Shown one piece after another: positions 2,363 to 26,166 of a DNA stretch of 37,217 nucleotides (the stretch's first letter is position 1; each line of letters begins with the position of its first letter). The notes below the pieces were generated by a model that worked only from the letters and a program-made list of their open reading frames with translations, had not been told where the DNA came from and searched no databases. The stretch lies in assembly GCA_023245145.1 (NCBI GenBank), contig JAHFKW010000004.1:1-37217 (forward strand), written 5' to 3'. A program made the translations under genes and the position numbers. The DNA comes from Candidatus Staskawiczbacteria bacterium. Lineage in GTDB: Bacteria; Patescibacteriota; Minisyncoccia; Minisyncoccales; Staskawiczbacteraceae.

Positions 2363-4766
2363 TTTTCTCTTTCTCCGCCACCAACATGGTGGTTTTAATA
2401 ATACTATCTGGATTTAAAGAAATAGATTCAATTCCAAGCCCCACCAAAAATTCGGCAAAGTCTGGAAAATCCGATGGGCCCTGGCCACAAATTCCCGAGT
2501 ACTTGCCCGCTTTTTTACAGGCCTCTACTGCGATTTTAATCAAAGCTTTAACCGCTTCATTTTTTTCATTTCCCACGGCCGCAATTTCTGAATTATCTCT
2601 ATCCAACCCCAGCGTAAGTTGCGTCAAATCATTTGAGCCAATGGAAAAACCGTCAAAGATTTCCAAAAATTGTTCTGCCAATACCACATTGGCCGGAATT
2701 TCACACATCACGAAAATCTTTAGTGGATTTTCGTGACCCTGAGCCACGTCGAAGGGTGACCCCCTCTCCAGCCCACATTCCTTCATAATCTCTAACACCT
2801 TTTGCCCCTCCTCCACCGTTCGGCAAAACGGAATCATCACCTGTACATTATCAATCCCCATTTCTTCGCGAACTTTTTTAATGGCACGGCACTCCAACAT
2901 GAACGCCTCTTTGAATTTTTCGTTGTAATACCTTGAAGCACCTCGAAAACCAATCATGGGATTGCGCTCATCATCGGCCTCATACAAATGCCCGCCGATT
3001 AATTCCCTATATTCATTCGTCCTGAAATCCGAAAATCGCACAATAACTTGTTTTGGGTAAAACGCCGCGCCGATTTTTCCTACCCCTTCAGCCAGTTTAT
3101 CAACATAAAACTCGGCCTTATTTTCATATCCCATACTCAATGCATCAATTTGTTTTTTTAGTTCGGATGATAGCGTCGCATAATGAATCAATGCGTTGGG
3201 GTGAATTTTTATGGTGTTAGCAATAATTAACTCTTCGCGCGCGAGCCCCACGCCGTCATTGGGAATAAAACTTAAATTAAAAGCCTGGCTCGGATCCGCC
3301 AAATTCATTTCTATTTTTGTGCGTGTTTTTTGGAGAGCCGAAATATCAGTTTTATTGATTTTAAAATCAATCAAGCCTTCATACACAAAGCCATGTTCGC
3401 CTTGACTGCAATCCACCGTCACTTCCTTGCCCGTTTTTAACACTTTGGTGGCATTACTCGCCCCCACAATACAAGGAATTCCTAATTCACGAGATACAAT
3501 GGCTGCGTGCGCGGTTCGGCCACCCTGATCAGTAATAATTGCCGAAGCTAACTTCATGGCCGGCACCCAATCTGGGTCCGTCATACCCGTCACCAACACT
3601 TCTCCCTTTTTAAATTTATTAATATCTTTGGCGCTTAAAATATTATTGACTTTTCCATGTCCAATTTTACTGCCCACCGACATGCCGCTTACTGTAACCT
3701 GTAACCTGGAACCTGTAACCTGTAACTTATATTCTTCCAATACATTCACATTTTTTTTGCTGGCCACCGTTTCAGGGCGAGCTTGCACAATATATAATTT
3801 TCCGGTTTGACCGTCCTTGGCCCATTCCATGTCCATGGGTTTTTGATAATGCTCTTCCACTAGCATGCTCCACTTAGCCAATTGTAAAATATCGTCATCG
3901 CAAAGCACAAACCTTTGCTGGTCTTTTAAGGCGGTTTTGGTGTTTTTTATGGGACTCTTGGGGTTGTTAGTGTAAACCATAGTCAACAATTTTGACCCCA
4001 TCTTTTTTTCCAAAATTGGTTTATGCCCTGTTTTTAAAGTTGTTTCAAATACATAATATTGATCGGGCTCAACTCTACCTAAAACCACATTTTCACCTAA
4101 TCCAAAGCTAGCGTTAATTAAAACCACATCACCAAAGCCCGATTCCGTATCGCATGAAAACATCACTCCACTGGCGCCCACGTCGCTTCTCACCATTTTT
4201 TGAATTCCGGCCGAAAGCCCCACCTTGGTGTGTCCAAATCCCATTTCTTGTCGATACGCAATAGCCCTGTCGGTAAATAACGAAGCAAAACATTTTTTGA
4301 CTGCTTCCAATACCTGCTTTTCACCGGTAATATTTAAAAAGGTTTCTTGTTGGCCGGCAAAACTGGCACCGGGCAAATCTTCCGCCGTAGCGCTGGATCT
4401 AACCGCCACATCCGTATTTTTTACCTCATAATTTTTAGATAATTCCTGATAAGCTGTAATAATATCCGCTTGCAAATCAGCGGGTAATCTAGCGCCTAAA
4501 ATTAACTTTCTCACTTGAAGCCCCTTGTGTTGTAAGCTTTTTAAATCATGTACATCCACATCGTGTAAAATGGCTTCAATTTTGGGAGTTAAGCCTGATT
4601 GAGTTAAAAAATAAAAATAAGCCTCGGCGGTGGTGGCAAAACCATTCGCCAAATTCACGCCTTTGGAAAGCAAATTATTATACATTTCGCCTAGGGACGC
4701 ATTTTTCCCGCCCACCACTGGCACGTCTTTAATTCCCAATTCCCGAAACCAAAGTATATTTTGCAT
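2355..4766 (-). CDS. ppsA: Phosphoenolpyruvate synthase
   Basis: The enzyme converts pyruvate, ATP and water to PEP, AMP and phosphate; in such organisms it may also run towards pyruvate. Order of domains: N-terminal ATP-grasp (about 1-340, with VGGKNASLGEM at 17-27 and RSSATAEDLPGASFAGQQ near 123-140), the swivelling phosphohistidine domain (GGRTAHAAIVSREL, His near 417), and the C-terminal TIM barrel with IGSNDLTQLTLGLDRDN and the catalytic Cys in SGICGQGPSD near 759. Length (803 aa) is usual. Two unusual insertions are present: a heptad array encoding LQVTGSRLQVT in the linker before the phosphohistidine domain, and a palindromic insert encoding SPFDVAQGH near residue 670. The gene follows gap by 9 bp and overlaps the kinase gene. 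Confidence 0.95.
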   Translation of the reverse strand: MQNILWFRELGIKDVPVVGGKNASLGEMYNNLLSKGVNLANGFATTAEAYFYFLTQSGLTPKIEAILHDVDVHDLKSLQHKGLQVRKLILGARLPADLQADIITAYQELSKNYEVKNTDVAVRSSATAEDLPGASFAGQQETFLNITGEKQVLEAVKKCFASLFTDRAIAYRQEMGFGHTKVGLSAGIQKMVRSDVGASGVMFSCDTESGFGDVVLINASFGLGENVVLGRVEPDQYYVFETTLKTGHKPILEKKMGSKLLTMVYTNNPKSPIKNTKTALKDQQRFVLCDDDILQLAKWSMLVEEHYQKPMDMEWAKDGQTGKLYIVQARPETVASKKNVNVLEEYKLQVTGSRLQVTVSGMSVGSKIGHGKVNNILSAKDINKFKKGEVLVTGMTDPDWVPAMKLASAIITDQGGRTAHAAIVSRELGIPCIVGASNATKVLKTGKEVTVDCSQGEHGFVYEGLIDFKINKTDISALQKTRTKIEMNLADPSQAFNLSFIPNDGVGLAREELIIANTIKIHPNALIHYATLSSELKKQIDALSMGYENKAEFYVDKLAEGVGKIGAAFYPKQVIVRFSDFRTNEYRELIGGHLYEADDERNPMIGFRGASRYYNEKFKEAFMLECRAIKKVREEMGIDNVQVMIPFCRTVEEGQKVLEIMKECGLERGSPFDVAQGHENPLKIFVMCEIPANVVLAEQFLEIFDGFSIGSNDLTQLTLGLDRDNSEIAAVGNEKNEAVKALIKIAVEACKKAGKYSGICGQGPSDFPDFAEFLVGLGIESISLNPDSIIKTTMLVAEKEKNV
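2710..2762. repeat. In-frame palindromic repeat inside ppsA
   Basis: ACGAAAATC (2710-2718) and GATTTTCGT (2726-2734) form a perfect 9-bp inverted repeat. Directly after it comes the element CCCTGAGC..GTCGAAGGG, read on the minus strand as CCCTTCGACGTGGCTCAGGG. It is translated as SPFDVAQGH within a loop where PEP synthases normally go straight from GLxRG to the strand before VMCEIPxN. The CCCTTCGAC..CTCAGGG pattern is a REP-like sequence seen in many environmental genomes (from memory). Confidence 0.7.
3693..3727. repeat. Five tandem heptamers TGTAACC inside ppsA
   Basis: These are exactly five 7-bp units: TGTAACC, TGTAACC, TGGAACC, TGTAACC, TGTAACT. They are translated on the minus strand as part of KLQVTGSRLQVTV, in the linker between the ATP-grasp and phosphohistidine domains. 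The total of 35 bp is not a multiple of three, so the surrounding bases compensate. Confidence 0.85.
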
Positions 4767-4775
4767 TGTTATATA

Positions 4776-5741
4776 TTATAACTTTTTTGCTACAAACTCG
4801 GTAAACTCGGCCAAACGACACGAAAAGCCCCATTCATTATCATACCAAGCCACCACTTTGATTATATTGCCCGATACCATTGTGAGATTCGCGTCCAAAA
4901 TTGATGAATAACTGTCGCCCTTAAAATCCATAGAAACTAATTCTTGTTCTTCTACCCTGAAAATTCCCTTAAAATTCTTATCTTTGGCAGATTTTCTGAA
5001 CACCTCATTTACTTCTTCTATAGTAGTTAATTTTTCCACTTCCACCACCAAATCCAAAACCGAAACCACCGGTGTTGGCACACGCATAGAAATTCCGTCC
5101 AATTTTCCATCCAATTCCGGGATTATTTTCCTGATGGCTTTGGCTGCCCCTGTGCTGGTGGGAATAATATTAAGTGCTGCGGCTCTGGCGCGCCTTAAGT
5201 CTTTGTGTGGCAAATCCAAAATTTTCTGATCGTTGGTGTAACTGTGAACCGTATTCATAAACCCTTTTTTAATCCCAAAGTTATCATGCAAAATTTTGGC
5301 CACCGGCGCCAAGCAATTCGTAGTGCAAGAGCCCATGTCCATTACATCATCTTGATCAATGTCAAAATTTTCGGTGTTGACGCCAAGCACATATCCGGCG
5401 CAATCTTTACAAGGCCCCGACACAATCACCTTTTTAGCTCCAGCTTTCAAATGTTTCCCCCCGCCGGCTTTATCTGTAAAAAGCCCGGTGCACTCAAGCA
5501 CAATATCAATACCCAAATCCTTCCAAGGCAATTTTTCCGGATCTTTTTCCGCAAAAATGTTTTTGGGTAATTTACCATCAAAATTTCCGTAATTGGAATC
5601 ATGTTGCAACAAATGCAACAGCGTTTTTTCGTCGGTTAAATCATTGATCGCCACTACTTCTAAATTTTTGTGGTTTTCCAAAATCCGCCGATACACTTGC
5701 CGGCCAATTCTCCCAAATCCATTGATAGCTATCTTTGTCAT
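4776..5741 (-). CDS. gap: Glyceraldehyde-3-phosphate dehydrogenase (type I)
   Basis: The enzyme oxidises GAP to 1,3-bisphosphoglycerate with NAD(P)+. Features: the Rossmann start MTKIAINGFGRIGR, the catalytic motif SCTTNCLAP with nucleophile Cys139, the glyceraldehyde-phosphate site around NIIPTSTGAAKA, and the ending WYDNEWGFSCRLAEF. I chose the ATG at 5741 because the family begins with this Met. The frame stays open to an ATG at 5762, but those seven extra residues are encoded by a heptad repeat and are unlike GAPDH. No Shine-Dalgarno sequence is visible. The segment SGPCKDCAGYVLGVN at 108-122 matches the usual SAPxKxxxxTxVxGVN only loosely. PPS follows 9 bp downstream. Confidence 0.95.
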   Translation of the reverse strand: MTKIAINGFGRIGRQVYRRILENHKNLEVVAINDLTDEKTLLHLLQHDSNYGNFDGKLPKNIFAEKDPEKLPWKDLGIDIVLECTGLFTDKAGGGKHLKAGAKKVIVSGPCKDCAGYVLGVNTENFDIDQDDVMDMGSCTTNCLAPVAKILHDNFGIKKGFMNTVHSYTNDQKILDLPHKDLRRARAAALNIIPTSTGAAKAIRKIIPELDGKLDGISMRVPTPVVSVLDLVVEVEKLTTIEEVNEVFRKSAKDKNFKGIFRVEEQELVSMDFKGDSYSSILDANLTMVSGNIIKVVAWYDNEWGFSCRLAEFTEFVAKKL

Positions 5742-5818
5742 GAAACTTGAAACATGGAACATGAAGCAAGCAACGACGTTGCGTTTTTTTGTTTCATGCT
5801 TTATGTTTTATGCTTTAT
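5741..5818. repeat. Inverted pair of heptad arrays around a palindrome (glutaredoxin-gap gap)
   Basis: Left array 5741-5768: TGAAACT, TGAAACA, TGGAACA, TGAAGCA. Centre 5770-5782: GCAACGACGTTGC, a palindrome followed by T7. Right array 5791-5818: GTTTCAT, GCTTTAT, GTTTTAT, GCTTTAT. The two arrays are inverted relative to each other and could fold into a long imperfect hairpin between glutaredoxin and gap. The array supplies the glutaredoxin stop codon and touches the gap start codon. The T7 after the central palindrome lies on the plus strand, so it is not a terminator for the minus-strand genes. Confidence 0.85.
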
Positions 5819-6045
5819 GTAATTTTGAGTATTTCATCAATGCGAGCCTTATCAAACCCAATCACCACTTCCCCATCCAAATCCACCACCGGCACACCCA
5901 TTTGTCCGGAAATCGCCACCATTTTTTCCAATTCTTTTTCATTGAGAGACACATCAATTTCCGTGTAATCAAATTTTTTCTCCGTCAAATATTCTTTGAG
6001 TGTTTTACAATAAACGCACGTGGGAGTGGAATAGATAGTTATCAT
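5815..6045 (-). CDS. Glutaredoxin / NrdH-like thiol-disulfide protein
   Basis: This 76-aa thioredoxin-fold protein has the dithiol site CVYC (Cys10, Cys13) after the first strand ITIYSTPT, the cis-proline motif GVPVV (Pro52), and FDKARIDEIL at the C-terminus. It is expected to reduce disulfides in the cytoplasm, possibly for ribonucleotide reductase or with the thioredoxin reductase encoded at 10.2-11.2 kb. It starts one base after the stop of the DsbA-like gene, so the two are co-transcribed. The stop codon TAA lies within a heptad repeat array. Confidence 0.9.
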   Translation of the reverse strand: MITIYSTPTCVYCKTLKEYLTEKKFDYTEIDVSLNEKELEKMVAISGQMGVPVVDLDGEVVIGFDKARIDEILKIT

Positions 6046-7843: not shown

Positions 7844-9055
7844 TTATTTTTTATTTAATTCTTGTTCAATTGCCAACAACCGATCATATTTTACGATTCT
7901 GACATCTTTAGTATACGCTCCTGATTTAATAAAGTCAGCTCCAACTCCCACGGCCAAATCGGCAATAAAATTATCCATGGTTTCACCGCTTCGGTGACTG
8001 ACCATAATTTTCCAGCCATAACTTTTGGCTAAATTAACCGCGTCAATGGTTTCAGAAACCGTGCCAATTTGGTTGACCTTAATAATAATTCCGTTGCAGG
8101 CTTTTTTGGCTTCTGCTTCTTTAATTTTTTGGACATTGGTAGTTGTCAAATCATCTCCAATAATAATCGTTTCTGGTAAAGCCATTTTCATAGCCTTAAA
8201 CCCTTCCCAATCTTCTTCGCTAAACCCATCTTCAATAGAAATAATCGGAAAGCGCTTTACTAAATCCGCATAAAACTCCACTAATTGTTCACGGCTTAAC
8301 TGCATGCCTTCCTGCGGTTCATATTTTCCATCGCGGTAAAATTCCGAAGCTGCACAATCCAAAGCAATTTTTACATCTTCATGACCGCCAATGGCGCTTT
8401 TGATTAATAACAAAGCTTGTTCGGCTGTAGCAATGGCTGGCGCGTATCCGCCTTCGTCCCCCATTTCGGGTACTCCCGCTGGTGTGGCCTTTAGTAATTC
8501 AGTTAAAGCATTAAACACTTGGCTTCCCAAAACCAAATTTTCTTGAAACGTTTTTTTCATCGGCACCACCATAAATTCCTGCAATTCCAATTCATTTTTG
8601 GCATGAGCCCCACCGTTGAGTATATTAAAACTTGGCAATGGCATGCCAATTTTGTTTCTAGAAATATTTGAAAGATGCTGATATAAAGATATTTTTTGCG
8701 CTACAGCGCCAGCACGAGCCACCGCCATAGAAACCGGCAAAATAGCATTGGCTCCCAATTTTGATTTATTCGGTGTGCCATCCAGCGCAAGCATCAAGTC
8801 ATCAATTTCCTTTTGATTTGAAGGGTCCATTCCCACCAACTTTGACGCAATAATGTCATTCACATTCGCAATGGCTTTGCTGACTCCCCTTTTATCATCA
8901 TCCCGCAATTCCAAGGCTTCGTTAATTCCCGTTGAAGCCCCCGAAGGACATGAGGCAATAAATTCCCCATCTTTAGTTGTCAAAACCACCTCCACCGTCG
9001 GCTTCCCTCGCGAATCTTTTATTTCTCTGGCAATAATTTCTGTAATCTTACTCAT
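7844..9055 (-). CDS. eno: Enolase
   Basis: The enzyme interconverts 2-phosphoglycerate and PEP; it is Mg-dependent and cytoplasmic. Seen: DSRGKPTVEV (14-23), the mobile loop PSGASTG (37-43), GDEGGYAP, the metal ligand region SIEDGFSEEDW and GDDLTTTN, the catalytic Lys in IIKVNQIGT, and SHRSGET near the C-terminus. At 403 aa it is somewhat shorter than the usual 415-435. GNPT of the N-terminal signature is GKPT here. The leader has no Shine-Dalgarno sequence. Phosphoglycerate mutase follows 3 bp downstream, making a two-gene glycolytic unit. Confidence 0.96.
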   Translation of the reverse strand: MSKITEIIAREIKDSRGKPTVEVVLTTKDGEFIASCPSGASTGINEALELRDDDKRGVSKAIANVNDIIASKLVGMDPSNQKEIDDLMLALDGTPNKSKLGANAILPVSMAVARAGAVAQKISLYQHLSNISRNKIGMPLPSFNILNGGAHAKNELELQEFMVVPMKKTFQENLVLGSQVFNALTELLKATPAGVPEMGDEGGYAPAIATAEQALLLIKSAIGGHEDVKIALDCAASEFYRDGKYEPQEGMQLSREQLVEFYADLVKRFPIISIEDGFSEEDWEGFKAMKMALPETIIIGDDLTTTNVQKIKEAEAKKACNGIIIKVNQIGTVSETIDAVNLAKSYGWKIMVSHRSGETMDNFIADLAVGVGADFIKSGAYTKDVRIVKYDRLLAIEQELNKK

Positions 9056-9115
9056 GTTTTAATTTTTACTTTTTTTATAAGTTATTTTAACAAAATTAAA
9101 AAAGTGTGGCAACTA

Positions 9116-9144
9116 TTGACATATACTATTTAATAATATACTAT
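9116..9144 (+). promoter_or_regulatory. Strong sigma-70-type promoter
   Basis: TTGACA (9116-9121) and TACTAT (9139-9144) are 17 bp apart, the optimal spacing, about 47 bp before the start codon of the 83-aa plus-strand gene. The surrounding DNA is very AT-rich. Confidence 0.7.
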
Positions 9145-9191
9145 TAAATATGGCGGTAATTCAAGCCTTCTAAAATTGAAAGGGAATTAAC

Positions 9192-9443
9192 ATGAAAGCT
9201 TGGTTCTGGCATTTGGTTTGCGTCATCGTTATCGTTGCGCTCCTATCGGGATGGAGATGGGAGATAGGTAATCTAATGGAAAAAGAAGCTGAAATCACTC
9301 AGCTTAAGGCAACTGTAGATGCGCAGAGACGGGATATTGAAGATCGCAAAAAAGAAGCACATGAGGAAAGACAACGCATACTCAAGAGATATCAAGAGTA
9401 CGAGGACGAGATTGTCCGAATCATAGAGGGGAAAAAGAAGTGA
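9192..9443 (+). CDS. Small membrane-anchored coiled-coil protein
   Basis: This 83-aa orphan has a short cytoplasmic start, one hydrophobic segment at about 4-20 (WFWHLVCVIVIVALLSGW) and then a highly charged helical stretch from 28 to the end (KEAEITQLKATVDAQRRD and so on) that reads as a coiled coil. It may be a type II anchored protein or one with an uncleaved signal. It has its own consensus promoter, an AAGGGA ribosome-binding site 6 bases before the ATG, and a strong terminator. I do not recognise the family; phage spanin-like or FtsB/FtsL-like small proteins have a similar outline, but no specific match is seen. Confidence 0.7.
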   Translation: MKAWFWHLVCVIVIVALLSGWRWEIGNLMEKEAEITQLKATVDAQRRDIEDRKKEAHEERQRILKRYQEYEDEIVRIIEGKKK

Positions 9444-9459
9444 GGTAAAGAACCACAAA

Positions 9460-9498
9460 CCCCGAGACATGCGCAAGCAGACTCTCGGGGATTTTTTT
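9460..9498 (+). terminator. Rho-independent terminator of the 83-aa gene
   Basis: CCCCGAGA (9460-9467) pairs perfectly with TCTCGGGG (9483-9490), followed by A and T7. Confidence 0.92.
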
Positions 9499-9542
9499 AC
9501 GCTTCGACGTGACTCGGGGGCAGGCAAAACTCCAATTTATTA

Positions 9543-9580
9543 ATTCTCAATAATCATGCGGCCGCACGAAAAGCGAGAAT
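9543..9580. repeat. Dyad centred on TGCGGCCGCA, 3' side of the PaaX/Cas2-like gene
   Basis: ATTCTC (9543-9548) and GAGAAT (9575-9580) are inverted arms around a core containing ATGCGGCCGCACGAA (9556-9570). The same 15-mer occurs at 10125-10139 on the other side of the gene. The core TGCGGCCGCA is itself a 10-bp palindrome. It sits against the stop codon (9582) of the gene. Confidence 0.75.
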
Positions 9581-9581
9581 C

Positions 9582-10100
9582 TTATTTTATCTCTTCGATT
9601 ACAAAAATCTTTACGTATTCATCCAGTGCGTGCAGTGCCAATACTTTTTCCACCGCCTCCGATACATCATAGGGCGTAACCCAAACACTATGCTGAAACT
9701 TTTTAAATCCTAAATTCTGCAAAATACTTCTCAACAAATTACGCATCCCCCGCCTTTTCTCCGGCACATCAAACATCACCATTAGCCACTTACCATCCTT
9801 TCTCTTGGCGCGTAAACTGAAATGAGCACTAGCCATAAAAACCCTTTCCATCCCCCTTTTTGTAATTATAAAACCGTCCTTTTGTTCTAAACTCTTTATT
9901 TTAATATATCCGTATTTTTTAAGATAATAAATAAATTTACTAAATTGCTGACGTGAATACTTTTTAGCCAGCGGAGTATTGGGCGCAATCATACTTATAA
10001 TGCTTCGACGATATGGGTCAGCCACATCTGCAACATCGCGTACCTGACCCAAAAAATGATATACATCCCATAAAAATTGGTCGGTAACTGATAATTTCAT
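9582..10100 (-). CDS. PaaX/Cas2-like protein with N-terminal winged helix
   Basis: This 172-aa protein is in two parts. Residues 1-95 form a helix-rich DNA-binding-like region (KKYSRQQFSKFIYYLKKYGYIKI, then ITKRGMERVF). The C-terminal ferredoxin-like part, KWLMVMFDVPEKRRGMRN at 104-121, resembles Cas2 and the PaaX C-terminal domain; Asp111 stands where Cas2 has its metal-binding Asp after strand 1. Similar stand-alone proteins are common in Patescibacteria, where they are often labelled Cas2 without any CRISPR (from memory). No CRISPR array or other cas gene is present here, so adaptation is unlikely; a transcriptional regulator or nucleic-acid-binding role fits better. The gene is bracketed by two copies of a palindromic dyad that could be its binding site. 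Confidence 0.75.
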   Translation of the reverse strand: MKLSVTDQFLWDVYHFLGQVRDVADVADPYRRSIISMIAPNTPLAKKYSRQQFSKFIYYLKKYGYIKIKSLEQKDGFIITKRGMERVFMASAHFSLRAKRKDGKWLMVMFDVPEKRRGMRNLLRSILQNLGFKKFQHSVWVTPYDVSEAVEKVLALHALDEYVKIFVIEEIK

Positions 10101-10115
10101 AACGTATTTTAATTC

Positions 10116-10145
10116 TTAGAATCAATGCGGCCGCACGAATTCTAA
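10116..10145. repeat. Dyad centred on TGCGGCCGCA, 5' side of the PaaX/Cas2-like gene
   Basis: TTAGAAT (10116-10122) and ATTCTAA (10139-10145) are perfect 7-bp arms around CAATGCGGCCGCACGA. It shares ATGCGGCCGCACGAA with the dyad at 9556-9570. It lies 16 bp upstream of the start codon at 10100, an operator-like place. Confidence 0.75.
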
Positions 10146-10223
10146 AAATTTAACAATAAATAAAATCCATTAAATTTATTCACTCTTCTTAATACCACTC
10201 TATTTATATTTTCAATGTCTGGT

Positions 10224-10261
10224 ATCAGTGAAAGTTAGTGTTGCTAACTAACTTTCCTGAT
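10224..10261 (-). other. Long hairpin at the end of trxB
   Basis: ATCAG-t-GAAAGTTAG pairs with CTAACTTTC-CTGAT: 14 bp with one bulged base and a 9-nt loop containing the trxB stop codon. There is no U-tract on the minus strand, so it may be a transcript-stabilising 3' hairpin or a weak terminator. Confidence 0.6.
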
Positions 10262-11191
10262 ATAGTTATACGCGCTAAGGGCGGCTTTGGCGCCTTCGCC
10301 GGACGCCATGACGATTTGTTTGTACTTGCCCACATTGCAATCTCCCGCGGCAAAGAGGCCCGGGGTTTTTGTTTCCATCATTTCGGGCGTAAACACAATT
10401 TCTTGCTTATCGTTCAATTCAACTAAGTCACCCAGCCAAGAAGTGGAAGGACTATATCCGATTTCTACAAAAACTCCATTGACTTCTAATTTATTTTCCC
10501 TTGGCTCGCTGGAGCCTTGGGCGGAGGCGGCTTCTTTGCGATCCACATAATAAATCGCATTTACAAAAACCTTGCCTTCAATTCTGGTAACTTGTGCGTT
10601 GGTAATAATTTCAATATTTGGATTTTTGGCCACCAACTCCTGATTCTCTGCATCGGCGTTAATAGTTTCACCATATTCCAAAATCGTCACGTGTTTTACA
10701 TAATTAGATAAAAAGACTGCTGTTTCAAAACCGTTATTTCCCCCGCCCACCACCGCCACCACTTTATTTTTAAAAATCGGCCCATCGCAAAGTGAACAAT
10801 AGCTTACCCCCTTGCCCGAAAATTCTTCTTCACCCGGCACATTAATTAATTTTGATTTGGCGCCACTGGTCACAATCACCGCCACGGCTTCATGCGTTTT
10901 TCCCGATGCGGTTTTTATGGTAAAGACTTTTTCGTTCTTAGAAATTTCAACTACTTCGTCCACCTCAACCGAAAGTTCATTGGCGGATAACTGTTTTTTG
11001 TAAAGCTCAACCAAATCCGGCCCGGAGATTTTTTCAAACCCCGGATAATTTTCAATATCCACCGCTTTTTTGGCCACCTGTCCGCCAATATCCTTGGAAA
11101 TCATCAAGATATTCAACTTTTGCCGAGCCGCGTAAATACCCGCGGAAATTCCGGCCGGACCAGCGCCAATGATAATTAAATCGTATTGCAT
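10244..11191 (-). CDS. trxB: Thioredoxin reductase (NADPH, FAD)
   Basis: This flavoprotein transfers electrons from NAD(P)H to thioredoxin-type proteins. Seen: FAD-binding GAGPAGISAGIYAAR (9-23), redox pair YCSLCDG (Cys132, Cys135), the NADPH fold VVGGGNNGFETAVFL (147-161), and FAD-binding GLFAAGDCNVGKYKQIVMA near the C-terminus. Length (315 aa) is normal. Residues 219-233 (KEAASAQGSSEPREN) are an in-frame palindromic repeat insertion in the NADPH domain, placed between YYVDR and KLEVNGVFVEIG where homologues have a short turn. It probably supplies reductant to the glutaredoxin-type proteins at about 6 kb. The stop codon lies in the loop of a long hairpin. Confidence 0.93.
   Translation of the reverse strand: MQYDLIIIGAGPAGISAGIYAARQKLNILMISKDIGGQVAKKAVDIENYPGFEKISGPDLVELYKKQLSANELSVEVDEVVEISKNEKVFTIKTASGKTHEAVAVIVTSGAKSKLINVPGEEEFSGKGVSYCSLCDGPIFKNKVVAVVGGGNNGFETAVFLSNYVKHVTILEYGETINADAENQELVAKNPNIEIITNAQVTRIEGKVFVNAIYYVDRKEAASAQGSSEPRENKLEVNGVFVEIGYSPSTSWLGDLVELNDKQEIVFTPEMMETKTPGLFAAGDCNVGKYKQIVMASGEGAKAALSAYNYIRKVS
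10499..10541. repeat. In-frame GC-rich repeat inside trxB
   Basis: On the minus strand the core is GGCTC-CAGC-GAGCC, flanked by AA on both sides, within a GC-rich block. It is translated as EAASAQGSSEPRE, replacing a short turn of the NADPH domain. Confidence 0.65.
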
Positions 11192-11198
11192 ATGATAA

Positions 11199-11279
11199 TT
11201 TCTAATTTTAAATTTCTAATTTCTATTAAATATTCAATTATTAAAAATTTAATGAAAATTAGAAATTAGAAATTGAAAA
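11199..11279. repeat. Inverted pair of heptad arrays between ldhA and trxB
   Basis: Left array 11199-11226: TTTCTAA, TTTTAAA, TTTCTAA, TTTCTAT. Right array 11252-11279: ATGAAAA, TTAGAAA, TTAGAAA, TTGAAAA. There are four 7-bp units on each side in opposite orientation, 25 bp apart, able to fold into one long AT hairpin. The architecture matches the pair at 5741-5818 although the unit sequence differs. It fills the gap between the ldhA stop and the trxB start. Confidence 0.85.
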
Positions 11280-12281
11280 TTATATAACTATGTTAATTGC
11301 TTTTCCCTTTATAAATCCCCTGATATTCTCCACTGTGGTCTCCAATATTCTTTCCAGAGCTTCTTGGGAATTAAAGGCATTGTGAGGCGTAATAATCACA
11401 TTTTCCCGTTCCATTAAAATATGGTTTTGCAGAATTACTTTTACATCGTGCTTCTTTGAAACTTCCCGCGATAATAATTGACTATCTTCCCTTAAAAACT
11501 TTTCTTCTTCCAAAACATCTAATCCAACGCCCGCTAAAATTCCTTCATCCAGAGCCGTCGTCAAGGCTTGCGTTTCAATTAATCCGCCTCGAGCTGTATT
11601 AATCAAATAAGCACCCTTTTTAATCAACTTGATATTTTCCTTATTAATTAAATGGTGCGTGTGCGTATTATACGGCGCATGCAAAGAAATAATGTCTGAT
11701 TTTTTCAGTAACTCCTCCAATGTCGCATAATGGAATTCCAACTTTTTAGCCAATTTTTTGTCTTCGTGTGTGTCAAAGGCCATGACGCGCATTTCAAACC
11801 CATTGGCAATACGTGCCACATGCTGGCCAATATGCCCCATACCCACAATACCCAAGGTTTTACCCTTTAAATCAAAACCACGCAGTCCATGGACTGAAAA
11901 CCCCTCTTTTTTAACGCTTTCCACCGACTGGTGAATTTTTCGGGAAAGATCAAGCAGTAAAGCAAAGGCATGTTCGGCCACCGTGTTTTCGCCGTAGGTT
12001 GGCACGTTGCAAACGCTGATCCCATGCTGCTCAACTTCCTCCATATTCACATTGTCATATCCCGTAGCCCGCACCGCCAGCATTTTTAAATTTGGCAAAG
12101 CATCAAACATGGCGGGGGTTAATTCTGAATACACAAAAGTAGAAATAACTTGGCAACCTTTGATTTGTTCAATGTGCTCGGCCAAAATATGTTCAGGGAA
12201 AAAAAGTAACTCATGGCCTTTGAGCTTGTGCTGTAAATACGGCTTTTCCCATTCTTCAATCTCAAAAAACGCAATGTTCAT
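11280..12281 (-). CDS. ldhA: D-lactate dehydrogenase (D-2-hydroxyacid family)
   Basis: The enzyme reduces pyruvate to D-lactate with NADH, regenerating NAD+ for GAPDH. Seen: RATGYDNV (71-78), the NAD fold GIVGMGHIGQHVARI (144-158), catalytic Arg231 in NTARGG, acidic residues in LDVLEEE (254-260), and catalytic His300 in ITPHNAF. The insertion REDSQLLSREVSKK before the last strand is typical of fermentative D-LDH and not of phosphoglycerate dehydrogenase. Length (333 aa) is normal. The start has no Shine-Dalgarno sequence. The presence of D-LDH with no respiratory genes in view supports a fermentative lifestyle. Confidence 0.92.
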   Translation of the reverse strand: MNIAFFEIEEWEKPYLQHKLKGHELLFFPEHILAEHIEQIKGCQVISTFVYSELTPAMFDALPNLKMLAVRATGYDNVNMEEVEQHGISVCNVPTYGENTVAEHAFALLLDLSRKIHQSVESVKKEGFSVHGLRGFDLKGKTLGIVGMGHIGQHVARIANGFEMRVMAFDTHEDKKLAKKLEFHYATLEELLKKSDIISLHAPYNTHTHHLINKENIKLIKKGAYLINTARGGLIETQALTTALDEGILAGVGLDVLEEEKFLREDSQLLSREVSKKHDVKVILQNHILMERENVIITPHNAFNSQEALERILETTVENIRGFIKGKAINIVI

Positions 12282-22263: not shown

Positions 22264-24693
22264 TTAAAATAATACTTTGTATCCCTCAAAGTTTTCTGGT
22301 TTTTCGTATTCAAATCTTTCAAAGAGATGAATGCGCACTCGCTCTTTTAAATGTTCTCGCTGCTCTTTTTCGTCTCCAATTTCCTTAAGCCAAGTAGGCG
22401 GACTCTTAATGAAAAACTCCATCAGTTCACTATTTTCAGAAAAGGCTTGAATATCCATATAGAAAATATCTTCAATAAATTTTTCATTCTCACTTCCATT
22501 TAGTGGCGATAGCTGAATAAGCTTTCCCATCTTTTCTTTGTTGAAAATTAGAACCTGCTTGTCGACTCTTTGGTGATAAGTCTTAAATACAGGAACGAGC
22601 TGCCCATTCAAATCATACCAGCCATCAAATCCTTCTATCGTTAGTTGTTTAATATCTTTATTCCACTTTGGCCTATATTTTTTTGAATCTTCTAGAAATT
22701 GCCATATAGCAGTGCCGGTTGCAAAAATTACGATATTAGCCGGATCCTCAAAACTTAAAAGAGTAGATTCAAAGCTTTCTCTTGGAATTTCTTTACAATT
22801 TCTTGCAATGTCATCAAGGAGGTATGAATTTTCTCCAGAAGATAAGTCGTGACCATAATTTTCACCCCATCTGCCAAAACTAACATTCCATTCATCAAAA
22901 AAAGCAGCTTTATCATCCACGATATTCACTCCAAATCGCTCTTTTTTTCCGGGAATCTTTTCTTCTATTTTATTATCGTAGGATTCCAGATAATTAATAA
23001 AAATGTCTCTTAAAATCGCCCCTGTATAGAAGCTATCCATTACTTCTTTTTTGAATTCCTTGACTTTGGTTTGACTAATAGTTATTTCCTTGTGTTTTGT
23101 AGAAATTTGTTTAGTGGCTTCCTCTTTGACTCTTTTTAAAAATGGTACCAGTTTTTTATCAAAAAGTTCATCAATTTTACTCCTATCAAAACCAATTTCA
23201 GAAAGTAAATTTACGTCTTGCTTAAGATCATTAGCCATTACAACTAATCCATCTATAGAATATTCTATATTACTGAGGTTGTGTATATGCAGTTTTGGCA
23301 GACTATAATTCTCTACTTCCTGACACCCGCCGGCTCCGTCTACTGAAAAACCCTTTAGGGCACGGAGAAGTAATAATAAAAAGTATTGTTTATTGTATTT
23401 TTCACTGCCATGGTGGCCTTCCCAAAAATCCATGTTTTTATTGGACGGATTTTCTTTAAAATAGGATTTTATTACATCATTGAGTGTTCTTGGATTCACG
23501 TCATGTCCAAGCCAAGAAGCATCGGAATCTAATGGCTGTTTATATTCCCATAAGTATTTTATATAAGAATACTTTTGCTTAAAGAGAGAGTAAATACCAA
23601 TAGCAAATACAACTTCTAAAAGATTTTTATACTTAAGTTGTAAAGTTACAAAATCTATTATTTCCTCTTCAATCTTTTGAGCGCTCTGCTTTTGACTTTC
23701 GCCAATATTCGGCTCAACTATTCTTTTTAAATTTTCAAAACTTTCTAACCATGCCTTCAGCTCTTCTTGACTGTTTATGTCTTTCTCTGAATCAGTTAGT
23801 TCTGTAGCTTGTTTTTGAATATCGTGTTTTTGATTAACCTCATTGTATTTTTTAGTATCACTCTCTAAAAGAAGATGAGTATAATTCCAGACCTTACCTT
23901 CATTGTAGTCTGATATGTGAACGCCATCCACCAGCGTGGAAACTAAAGAATGGAAAAGAAATGTTCTACCCTCGGATATAATGTATCTAATAATTGATAA
24001 AAAATAATTGTTAAAAATACTGAGATAAGAGAGATTAAAATCTTTTGTCGTACTCCGACGCAACCCATTAAAAACTATATCTGTGTACCAATTAATTGCT
24101 AGCGAATAGATGGATGGACCAATAGTATTAGAATCACCACTTTCTTTAATGGCTTTATATGCCATCGAACTTGTTAATCTTAAAAATTGTTCAACAAAAA
24201 GCTGATTATCGGGCTCCTGGGAAATTTCGGCAAGTAAACTATTTAAATTATAGACTACATATCTACTTATTTCATAGTTACTATTTTTTATCGCTGCTTC
24301 ATATATCTTCTTATAAGAGTCCAAAAACTGGGTTAATCCCCTTAACTCTCGGTCTGGCGTAAATCCTAATAAAAGACCGGCCTCTTTTTTCAGATCTTCC
24401 ACGCTTTTTGTTTTACCATCTATCTCCGCACTTTGGTTTTTATTAATAGGAACAACGTATCTATTAAAAAAATCAGCCGACCATAATAAAGAGTCAAACT
24501 TTTCAGGATTATCTTTTTTTAATTTTAAAAATTGATTAAAGATTTTTCCAAATTCTTTGATAATATCTGAAACCGTTTCATTATCTCCTCTTTCTACTTT
24601 TACCAAAGCGATATTTACCATTTTTTCCAAAGCAAAAAGCCAAAGGTTGCGCTGCTCAGTAATTGTTTTATTTTTGGAAAATATCCTGAACAT
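22264..24693 (-). CDS. Large protein of unknown function paired with a membrane protein
   Basis: This 809-aa, mostly helical protein has no membrane segment or signal peptide. I do not recognise a family. Visible: helical repeats over about 1-380 (for example RNLWLFALEKMVNIALVKVERGD, in which residues recur every few turns as in TPR-like solenoids), a charged stretch near 290-320, WLGHDVNPRTL near 395, DFWEGHHGSEKYNKQYF near 420, and a C-terminal globular part (about 580-809) with GRWGENYGHDLSSGEN, NIVIFATGTAIWQFLEDSKK, FDGWYDLNGQLVPVFKTYHQ. The ATG overlaps the 3' end of the 186-aa membrane-protein gene by 26 bp in another frame, so the two act together or are a split single protein. Defence or sensing is a guess from its place in an accessory block. 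Confidence 0.8.
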   Translation of the reverse strand: MFRIFSKNKTITEQRNLWLFALEKMVNIALVKVERGDNETVSDIIKEFGKIFNQFLKLKKDNPEKFDSLLWSADFFNRYVVPINKNQSAEIDGKTKSVEDLKKEAGLLLGFTPDRELRGLTQFLDSYKKIYEAAIKNSNYEISRYVVYNLNSLLAEISQEPDNQLFVEQFLRLTSSMAYKAIKESGDSNTIGPSIYSLAINWYTDIVFNGLRRSTTKDFNLSYLSIFNNYFLSIIRYIISEGRTFLFHSLVSTLVDGVHISDYNEGKVWNYTHLLLESDTKKYNEVNQKHDIQKQATELTDSEKDINSQEELKAWLESFENLKRIVEPNIGESQKQSAQKIEEEIIDFVTLQLKYKNLLEVVFAIGIYSLFKQKYSYIKYLWEYKQPLDSDASWLGHDVNPRTLNDVIKSYFKENPSNKNMDFWEGHHGSEKYNKQYFLLLLLRALKGFSVDGAGGCQEVENYSLPKLHIHNLSNIEYSIDGLVVMANDLKQDVNLLSEIGFDRSKIDELFDKKLVPFLKRVKEEATKQISTKHKEITISQTKVKEFKKEVMDSFYTGAILRDIFINYLESYDNKIEEKIPGKKERFGVNIVDDKAAFFDEWNVSFGRWGENYGHDLSSGENSYLLDDIARNCKEIPRESFESTLLSFEDPANIVIFATGTAIWQFLEDSKKYRPKWNKDIKQLTIEGFDGWYDLNGQLVPVFKTYHQRVDKQVLIFNKEKMGKLIQLSPLNGSENEKFIEDIFYMDIQAFSENSELMEFFIKSPPTWLKEIGDEKEQREHLKERVRIHLFERFEYEKPENFEGYKVLF

Positions 24694-25916: not shown

Positions 25917-26027
25917 TTATTTCTGGTTGGTAACAAAAAGCCCACCACCAGTTTGGCCTTGCGGCCCATACAAGTTTCCCTGTATGACGCTATGAACGCT
26001 CCCTGATGATGGGATCTTTATGTTCAT
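25917..26027 (-). CDS. Possible 36-aa Gly-rich mini-protein
   Basis: The frame opens AACGCT-ATG, the same leader as the following gene, and encodes MNIKIPSSGSVHSVIQGNLY then GPQGQTGGGLFVTNQK, ending 15 bp before the 187-aa gene. An in-frame ATG at 26048 would add seven residues. The peptide is Gly/Gln/Ser-rich. The DNA also folds strongly, with inverted repeats across the frame, so the signal may instead be a structured leader. No Shine-Dalgarno sequence is seen. Confidence 0.35.
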   Translation of the reverse strand: MNIKIPSSGSVHSVIQGNLYGPQGQTGGGLFVTNQK

Positions 26028-26066
26028 AGCGTTTTTAGCCATACCCATAGGGAATCTATGGGGTTA
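25970..26066 (-). promoter_or_regulatory. Structured leader region with multiple hairpins
   Basis: Perfect dyads: ACGCTATGAAC/GTTCATAGCGT (25987-25997 and 26022-26032) with an inner TCCC/GGGA; CCCATAG/CTATGGG near 26,044-26,062; CATAC/GTATG near 25,969-25,986; and GGCC-GCAA-GGCC near 25,955-25,966. The stems surround the start of the 36-codon ORF. I do not match it to a known riboswitch. Confidence 0.45.
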
Positions 26067-26166
26067 GGCAATCATTATTAAATTGTAGGTTTATGATAGC
26101 TTAAAAAATGATAATTGTGTAGTCTTTTTACCAACAGTTTACTGATTCCACCATTCGAAAATATAC

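Follow-up and report, generated by a model that had tools for sequence, protein, structure and literature searches.

Mirrored heptad arrays between genes of a Candidatus Staskawiczbacteria genome probably belong to families of dispersed hairpin elements

Several families of repeat-armed elements, which differ in repeat unit and each have a fixed length, have been copied to new sites as whole units in the genome of a Candidatus Staskawiczbacteria bacterium. To judge from its sequence, the mirrored pair of heptad arrays that lies between an ldhA-like and a trxB-like gene is one copy of such a family (family B), an element of ~85 bases that is predicted to form a hairpin and to have spread through the genome. 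The pair is located in a 37,217-nucleotide stretch of contig JAHFKW010000004.1 (the window). We consider it probable that these elements are non-autonomous, REPIN/MITE-like palindromes with tandem-heptad arms, which survive where they can be accommodated between a stop and a start codon.

The ldhA-trxB gap in the window is 88 nt long and is exactly filled by the mirrored element (Table 1). The presence of TTTCTAA and TTAGAAA arrays filling this gap had been claimed from inspection of the letters, and the claim is confirmed by tandem-repeat detection (TRF), by the exact fill and by the predicted fold. The sense RNA of the gap forms a single long hairpin (−23.6 kcal/mol, z = −6.05 relative to dinucleotide shuffles) that was matched by none of 200 shuffles, and the gap folded as DNA gives z = −3.96. 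Of the proposed layout of four plus four units 25 bp apart, the mirrored arrangement holds, but the spacer measures 30 nt, with base pairing carrying on into it (TTAAAT/ATTTAA), and each arm has about four rather than exactly four units, which are degenerate (one left unit, for example, is TTTTAAA). No intrinsic terminator, meaning a GC-rich stem followed by a T run, is found at the site, and a search with the Rfam 15 covariance models matched no family over the element. A second pair with the same layout and a different unit had been reported at 5741; it is present, with 4+4 units of the CATGAAA/TTTCATG type, in a glutaredoxin-gapA gap whose length is 73 nt here and 23 nt in the complete genome of a relative (G004). 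Elsewhere in the window, a PaaX-like/Cas2-like domain protein is encoded at 9582-10100, downstream of trxB, and a LOOT RNA (Rfam RF03000) lies at 25955-26070 on the − strand (82.6 bits).

Table 1. Positions of repeat elements and adjoining genes in the window
Feature	Position	Strand	Evidence or remark
Single-arm array CTGTAAC x5 in PEP-synthase-like gene	3692..3726	-	TRF; in frame; G004 alignment
gapA-like glyceraldehyde-3-phosphate dehydrogenase	4776..5741	-	Pfam Gp_dh_N/C; start codon at edge of family-A element
Family-A element (CATGAAA/CATAAAG heptads), glutaredoxin-like gene/gapA gap	5738..5819	-	nhmmer E 2e-15
trxB-like thioredoxin reductase, downstream gene	10244..11191	-	Pfam Pyr_redox_2 1.6e-42; start at 11191
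Family-B element, whole, in ldhA-trxB gap	11196..11281	-	87% identical over 86 bp to C8:120956-121041
Left heptad array TAATTTC/TTTCTAA x ~4; 3′ hairpin arm of sense (- strand) transcript	11196..11225	+	TRF period 7, 4.3 copies of TAATTTC, 82% matches
Spacer and inner stem (TTAAAT...ATTTAA)	11226..11255	.	Core common to family-B copies
Right heptad array AAATTAG/TTAGAAA x ~4; 5′ hairpin arm of sense transcript	11256..11282	+	TRF 3.9 copies of AAATTAG, 85% matches; extends to ldhA stop codon
ldhA-like D-2-hydroxyacid dehydrogenase, upstream gene	11280..12281	-	Pfam 2-Hacid_dh_C 3.3e-57; stop codon 11280-11282

A scan of all 14 contigs of the source genome (G000, 626 kb) revealed 56 strong period-7 arrays, compared with 0-2 in each of three Markov shuffles. 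The only other periods clearly raised are 8 (15), 9 (11) and 14 (28), most neighbouring periods being near background. Under a strict scan, mirrored heptad hairpins number 13 in G000 and 73 in a second genome of the genus (G012, 655 kb), with none in G004 and none in a shuffle; such pairs are not due to chance. Grouping by profile searches (nhmmer) yielded at least five dispersed families in G000, with the units CATGAAA (A), TTAGAAA (B), the octamer CTTGATAA (O), the nonamer ATTAGAATA (N) and CTAGAAT (T), while family F has a single copy there. Family B, which includes the ldhA-trxB element, comprises four full copies and one partial copy in the nhmmer search. Element lengths are family-specific (A, 72-82 bp; O, 72-78 bp; B, ~74-107 bp; D, mostly 68-87 bp; T, mostly 99-135 bp).

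Copies of one family can be nearly identical at unrelated places. For example, a pair of family-N elements from different contigs share 97.5% identity over 120 bp and a pair of family-A elements 92.6% over 81 bp, in each case with unrelated surroundings, as is also true of the ldhA-trxB element and its 87% identical family-B copy on another contig; family-T copies in G012 reach 94.7% identity. The identity between dispersed copies ends sharply at the element edges, which have inverted-repeat termini and MITE-like borders. No target-site duplication was evident by eye among the dispersed copies, in a comparison that had no near-identical empty site to draw on. Ten of 13 co-directional gaps that are long in G000 and tight in G004 hold repeat-armed hairpins of 72-120 bp. 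Where a gap is tight in another species, the new sequence folds with z ≤ −3 in 10 of 11 cases, in 6 of 10, and in 42 of the 59 gaps that are long in G012 and tight in G000; a period of 7-9 is seen in 45 of these 59. The sequence left outside the fold in such gaps amounts to only 14-18 nt, close to a normal gap.

Comparison of 13 genomes of the genus reveals that families differ between sister species and that one gap may hold different families in different species. At ldhA-trxB, repeat-armed hairpins with other units are present in G001, G003, G007, G008 and G012, making six genomes with G000; the two genes abut in another six (G002, G004, G005, G006, G009 and G011), and in G010 there is another neighbour. 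The glutaredoxin-gapA gap carries heptads in G000 and G009 and nonamers in G003 and G012, and the genes abut in G002, G004, G005, G006 and G008. This recurrence of the architecture rather than of the sequence is the part of the original prediction, that the architecture is selected or produced by one mechanism, that stands; the compensatory changes between arms proposed along with it do not (see below). Two outcomes had been named as telling against that view: independently evolving arms, which were found, and plain AT-rich gaps in relatives, which were not, since the relatives have hairpins or abutting genes instead. Most mirrored heptad hairpins in G012 belong to four families (D, T, F and C). 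In a set of 164 orthologous co-directional gaps, G000 and G012 both have an element in 10, while 4 gaps are filled in G000 only, 51 in G012 only and 99 in neither; most of the gaps filled in both species hold different families. A survey of 333 genomes of the phylum with exact patterns was near-negative because the units are lineage specific, and it therefore says little about the architecture.

Arms of individual elements were compared in sets chosen by profile (HMM) rather than by their folding: 30 T, 26 D and 12 F elements from G012, and families A, B and O from G000. Complementarity within elements (cis) is no higher than that of shuffled pairings (trans) in five of six families, and T and D fall significantly below the shuffled level (position-wise p = 0.0002). 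Left arms resemble other left arms, and right arms other right arms, more than they match their own partner, with only a slight difference in family O. Moreover, 82-94% of arm pairs in T, D and A have a mismatch at one particular phase of the heptad; both the below-trans pairing and this regular mismatch may owe something to subfamily structure or inversions. The exception in direction is the small family N, which gives only a non-significant cis excess. When G012 T and F elements were instead picked by hairpin scan, cis exceeded trans, but that set is biased by its selection, and the HMM-selected sets replaced it for this reason. The same kind of test does detect covariation in a different hairpin family, of G004, used as a positive control (cis 12.8 of 16 versus trans 9.2). 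The heptad arms, in contrast, do not covary and thus lack compensatory change, the mark of a functional RNA hairpin. The members of the G004 family are intercistronic hairpins in which the flanks AATAAGGTGTCGCAA ... AAGTGAATT are constant and the stem varies, at C1 near 401623, 421414 and 450103 (+) and at 23131 and 563194 (offsets on the − strand).

Surviving mirrored copies are almost exclusively intergenic, mainly between tightly packed co-directional genes, and their ends adjoin the upstream stop and the downstream start codon; in G012, co-directional genes flank 66 of the 71 elements that were placed. Among 26 hits in coding sequence, where one arm of the mirrored form would introduce stop codons, only one is a mirrored copy; single arms within genes are in frame. 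Two of the in-gene single arms are 7-residue insertions relative to G004. Rickettsia palindromic elements are repeat insertions that are tolerated in frame within genes; here, unlike in that case, the in-gene copies are single arms and the mirrored form is confined to gaps. Single-arm arrays occur at ~25 places in conserved genes of G000 and encode peptides such as KLSSYQVIKLSSY. The CTGTAAC array in the PEP-synthase-like gene falls in the linker between the PPDK_N and PEP-utilizers domains (Pfam domains 16-343 and 385-456). Two further ideas were rejected: G-U pairing on the sense strand, considered as proof of an RNA role, shows no bias, and a pattern in which the heptads place stop codons in every frame of the 5′ arm, and ATGs in every frame of the 3′ arm, is seen in A and D but is not general, as B, O and N lack the ATGs.

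The hairpins might have arisen locally, through tandem slippage of 7 nt followed by a template switch that writes the reverse complement, a route proposed for RNA hairpins and for the P6b heptanucleotide hairpin of Nostoc introns. Heptads are the commonest class of 5-11 nt repeats in many genomes and are ascribed to polymerase slippage in work cited in PMC4679880, and template switching can create hairpins (PMC8794818). The units often contain the stop codon of the host gene itself, and the same site has different unit sequences in different species, which would fit such an origin. However, dispersed copies of one family have both arms, core and length in common, and the failure of cis pairing to exceed trans in unbiased sets is contrary to the expectation from template switching. 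We therefore regard a local origin as unlikely; the suggestion that the pairs were made on the spot was not borne out, and they are instead copies of dispersed, sharply bounded families.

Another reading is that any sequence able to fold suffices as an operon RNA device, whether a translation-coupling staple, a barrier to RNase III or exonucleases, or a terminator, so that selection maintains the hairpin while families are replaced over time. The predominance of tight co-directional gaps and the near-normal length left outside the long stem would suit such devices, as would the bias in orientation relative to transcription that most families show (for example, D 15:3, A 6:0, O 7:1). Orthologous gaps are also co-occupied by different families more often than expected (10 versus ~5, p = 0.008, odds ratio 4.9), although permissive sites could explain this excess as well as function could. 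Against devices speak the lack of a terminator at ldhA-trxB, the arms without covariation, the many orthologues that have no gap at all, and the finding that the sense-strand RNA does not exceed the antisense in stability (42 versus 50), which together make this reading quite improbable. REP/REPIN elements mobilised by a RAYT (Y1) transposase have the same layout of two inverted units in a hairpin, occur as singlets and doublets and are mostly extragenic (PMC3116915). Yet Y1_Tnp has no match in the element carriers G000, G003 and G012, and the arms are tandem heptads rather than a single REP, so that RAYT-driven movement is extremely improbable.

Non-autonomous palindromes remain the explanation that we favor, and their copies would move as folded single-stranded DNA or RNA by means of a putative enzyme. 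A search for such an enzyme that covered Y1_Tnp and RVT_1 found no mover. Reverse transcriptase was rejected as the mover: it is encoded in 10 of the 13 genomes, but its presence does not track the elements, being absent from the element-bearing G007 and present in G004, which has no elements in the strict scan. The heptad period could reflect a 7-nt slippage ruler, or a paired core of 5-6 bp plus an unpaired linker of 1-2 nt. The hairpin form may be tolerated between abutting genes because folding would reunite the stop and start codons. That unrelated families have a common 7-nt period and a CpG-containing tip counts against ordinary MITEs. It is conceivable, though rather unlikely, that the elements constitute a new class of mobile element defined by geometry, with tandem 7-nt modules in which 5-6 nt form the paired core and 1-2 nt are kept mismatched, with families that are rapidly replaced, and with insertion between stop and start codons such that folding holds the two codons near each other and the hairpin itself keeps operon translation coupled. 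At the tips of unrelated heptad hairpins in G000 and G012, CpG-containing motifs (ACG/CGT) occur in 55 of 86 loops, with ~30 expected.

ERIC and NEMIS are intergenic palindromic repeats comparable to the elements described here. REPINs and BIMEs (PMC3116915) are likewise short, non-autonomous and dispersed, and their inverted arms fold into hairpins in mRNA or single-stranded DNA; they are mostly extragenic, several families may occupy one genome, and singlets occur too. Indeed, the present elements are inverted doublets that form a hairpin and have many dispersed extragenic copies. No GTAG- or CGTC-type REP foot was noticed among the dispersed copies that were compared. Unlike in REPINs, each arm is a run of 4-5 degenerate heptads in tandem and not one REP, the genome lacks a RAYT, and several unrelated families of the same design are present per genome, with different ones in sister species. 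In stem P6b of the Nostoc tRNA-Leu intron, a site of cyanobacterial heptanucleotide repeats (PMC3488679), degenerate heptads also pair across a stem, and one family here is similarly found at a group I intron (in 16S rRNA); there, however, repeat number varies at one locus, whereas here copies of fixed length occur genome-wide and mainly between genes. The TAACTGA heptamers of Beggiatoaceae and cyanobacteria resemble our arrays in being intergenic and shortly upstream of start codons, but they repeat one unit in direct orientation and almost never in inverted orientation (PMC4679880), whereas here the arrays are mirrored and the units many. None of these three systems unites mirrored arrays of tandem heptads with dispersed copies and the replacement of families.

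Open-access papers on Patescibacteria yielded no description of such elements. Genomes in this phylum are reduced and most genes abut, yet G012 carries such a hairpin in 61 of the 164 comparable co-directional gaps. Either these genomes are home to hairpin elements of an undescribed, very active family, or their operons tolerate only insertions that fold back. Both readings matter for how spacers evolve in dense genomes, for the in-frame insertion of peptides into conserved enzymes, and for the annotation of genes in the phylum.

Family N also occurs within the rRNA genes of G000. In the 16S rRNA gene on contig C9, Rfam matches a group I intron at 676-1144, and at the edge of this intron lies a hairpin of the family with nonamer arms (C9 583-716; stretch 579-719). 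Further copies are found at C9 7067-7138, 8978-9045 and 9348-9421, the last two inside the 23S rRNA match (8267-11753). Beyond the genus, period-7 arrays per 100 kb number 5.6 in Omnitrophota and 4.8 in other Patescibacteria loci, compared with 0.7 in other sampled bacteria and archaea, and their frequency in the first two groups suggests that the phenomenon may extend to other lineages.
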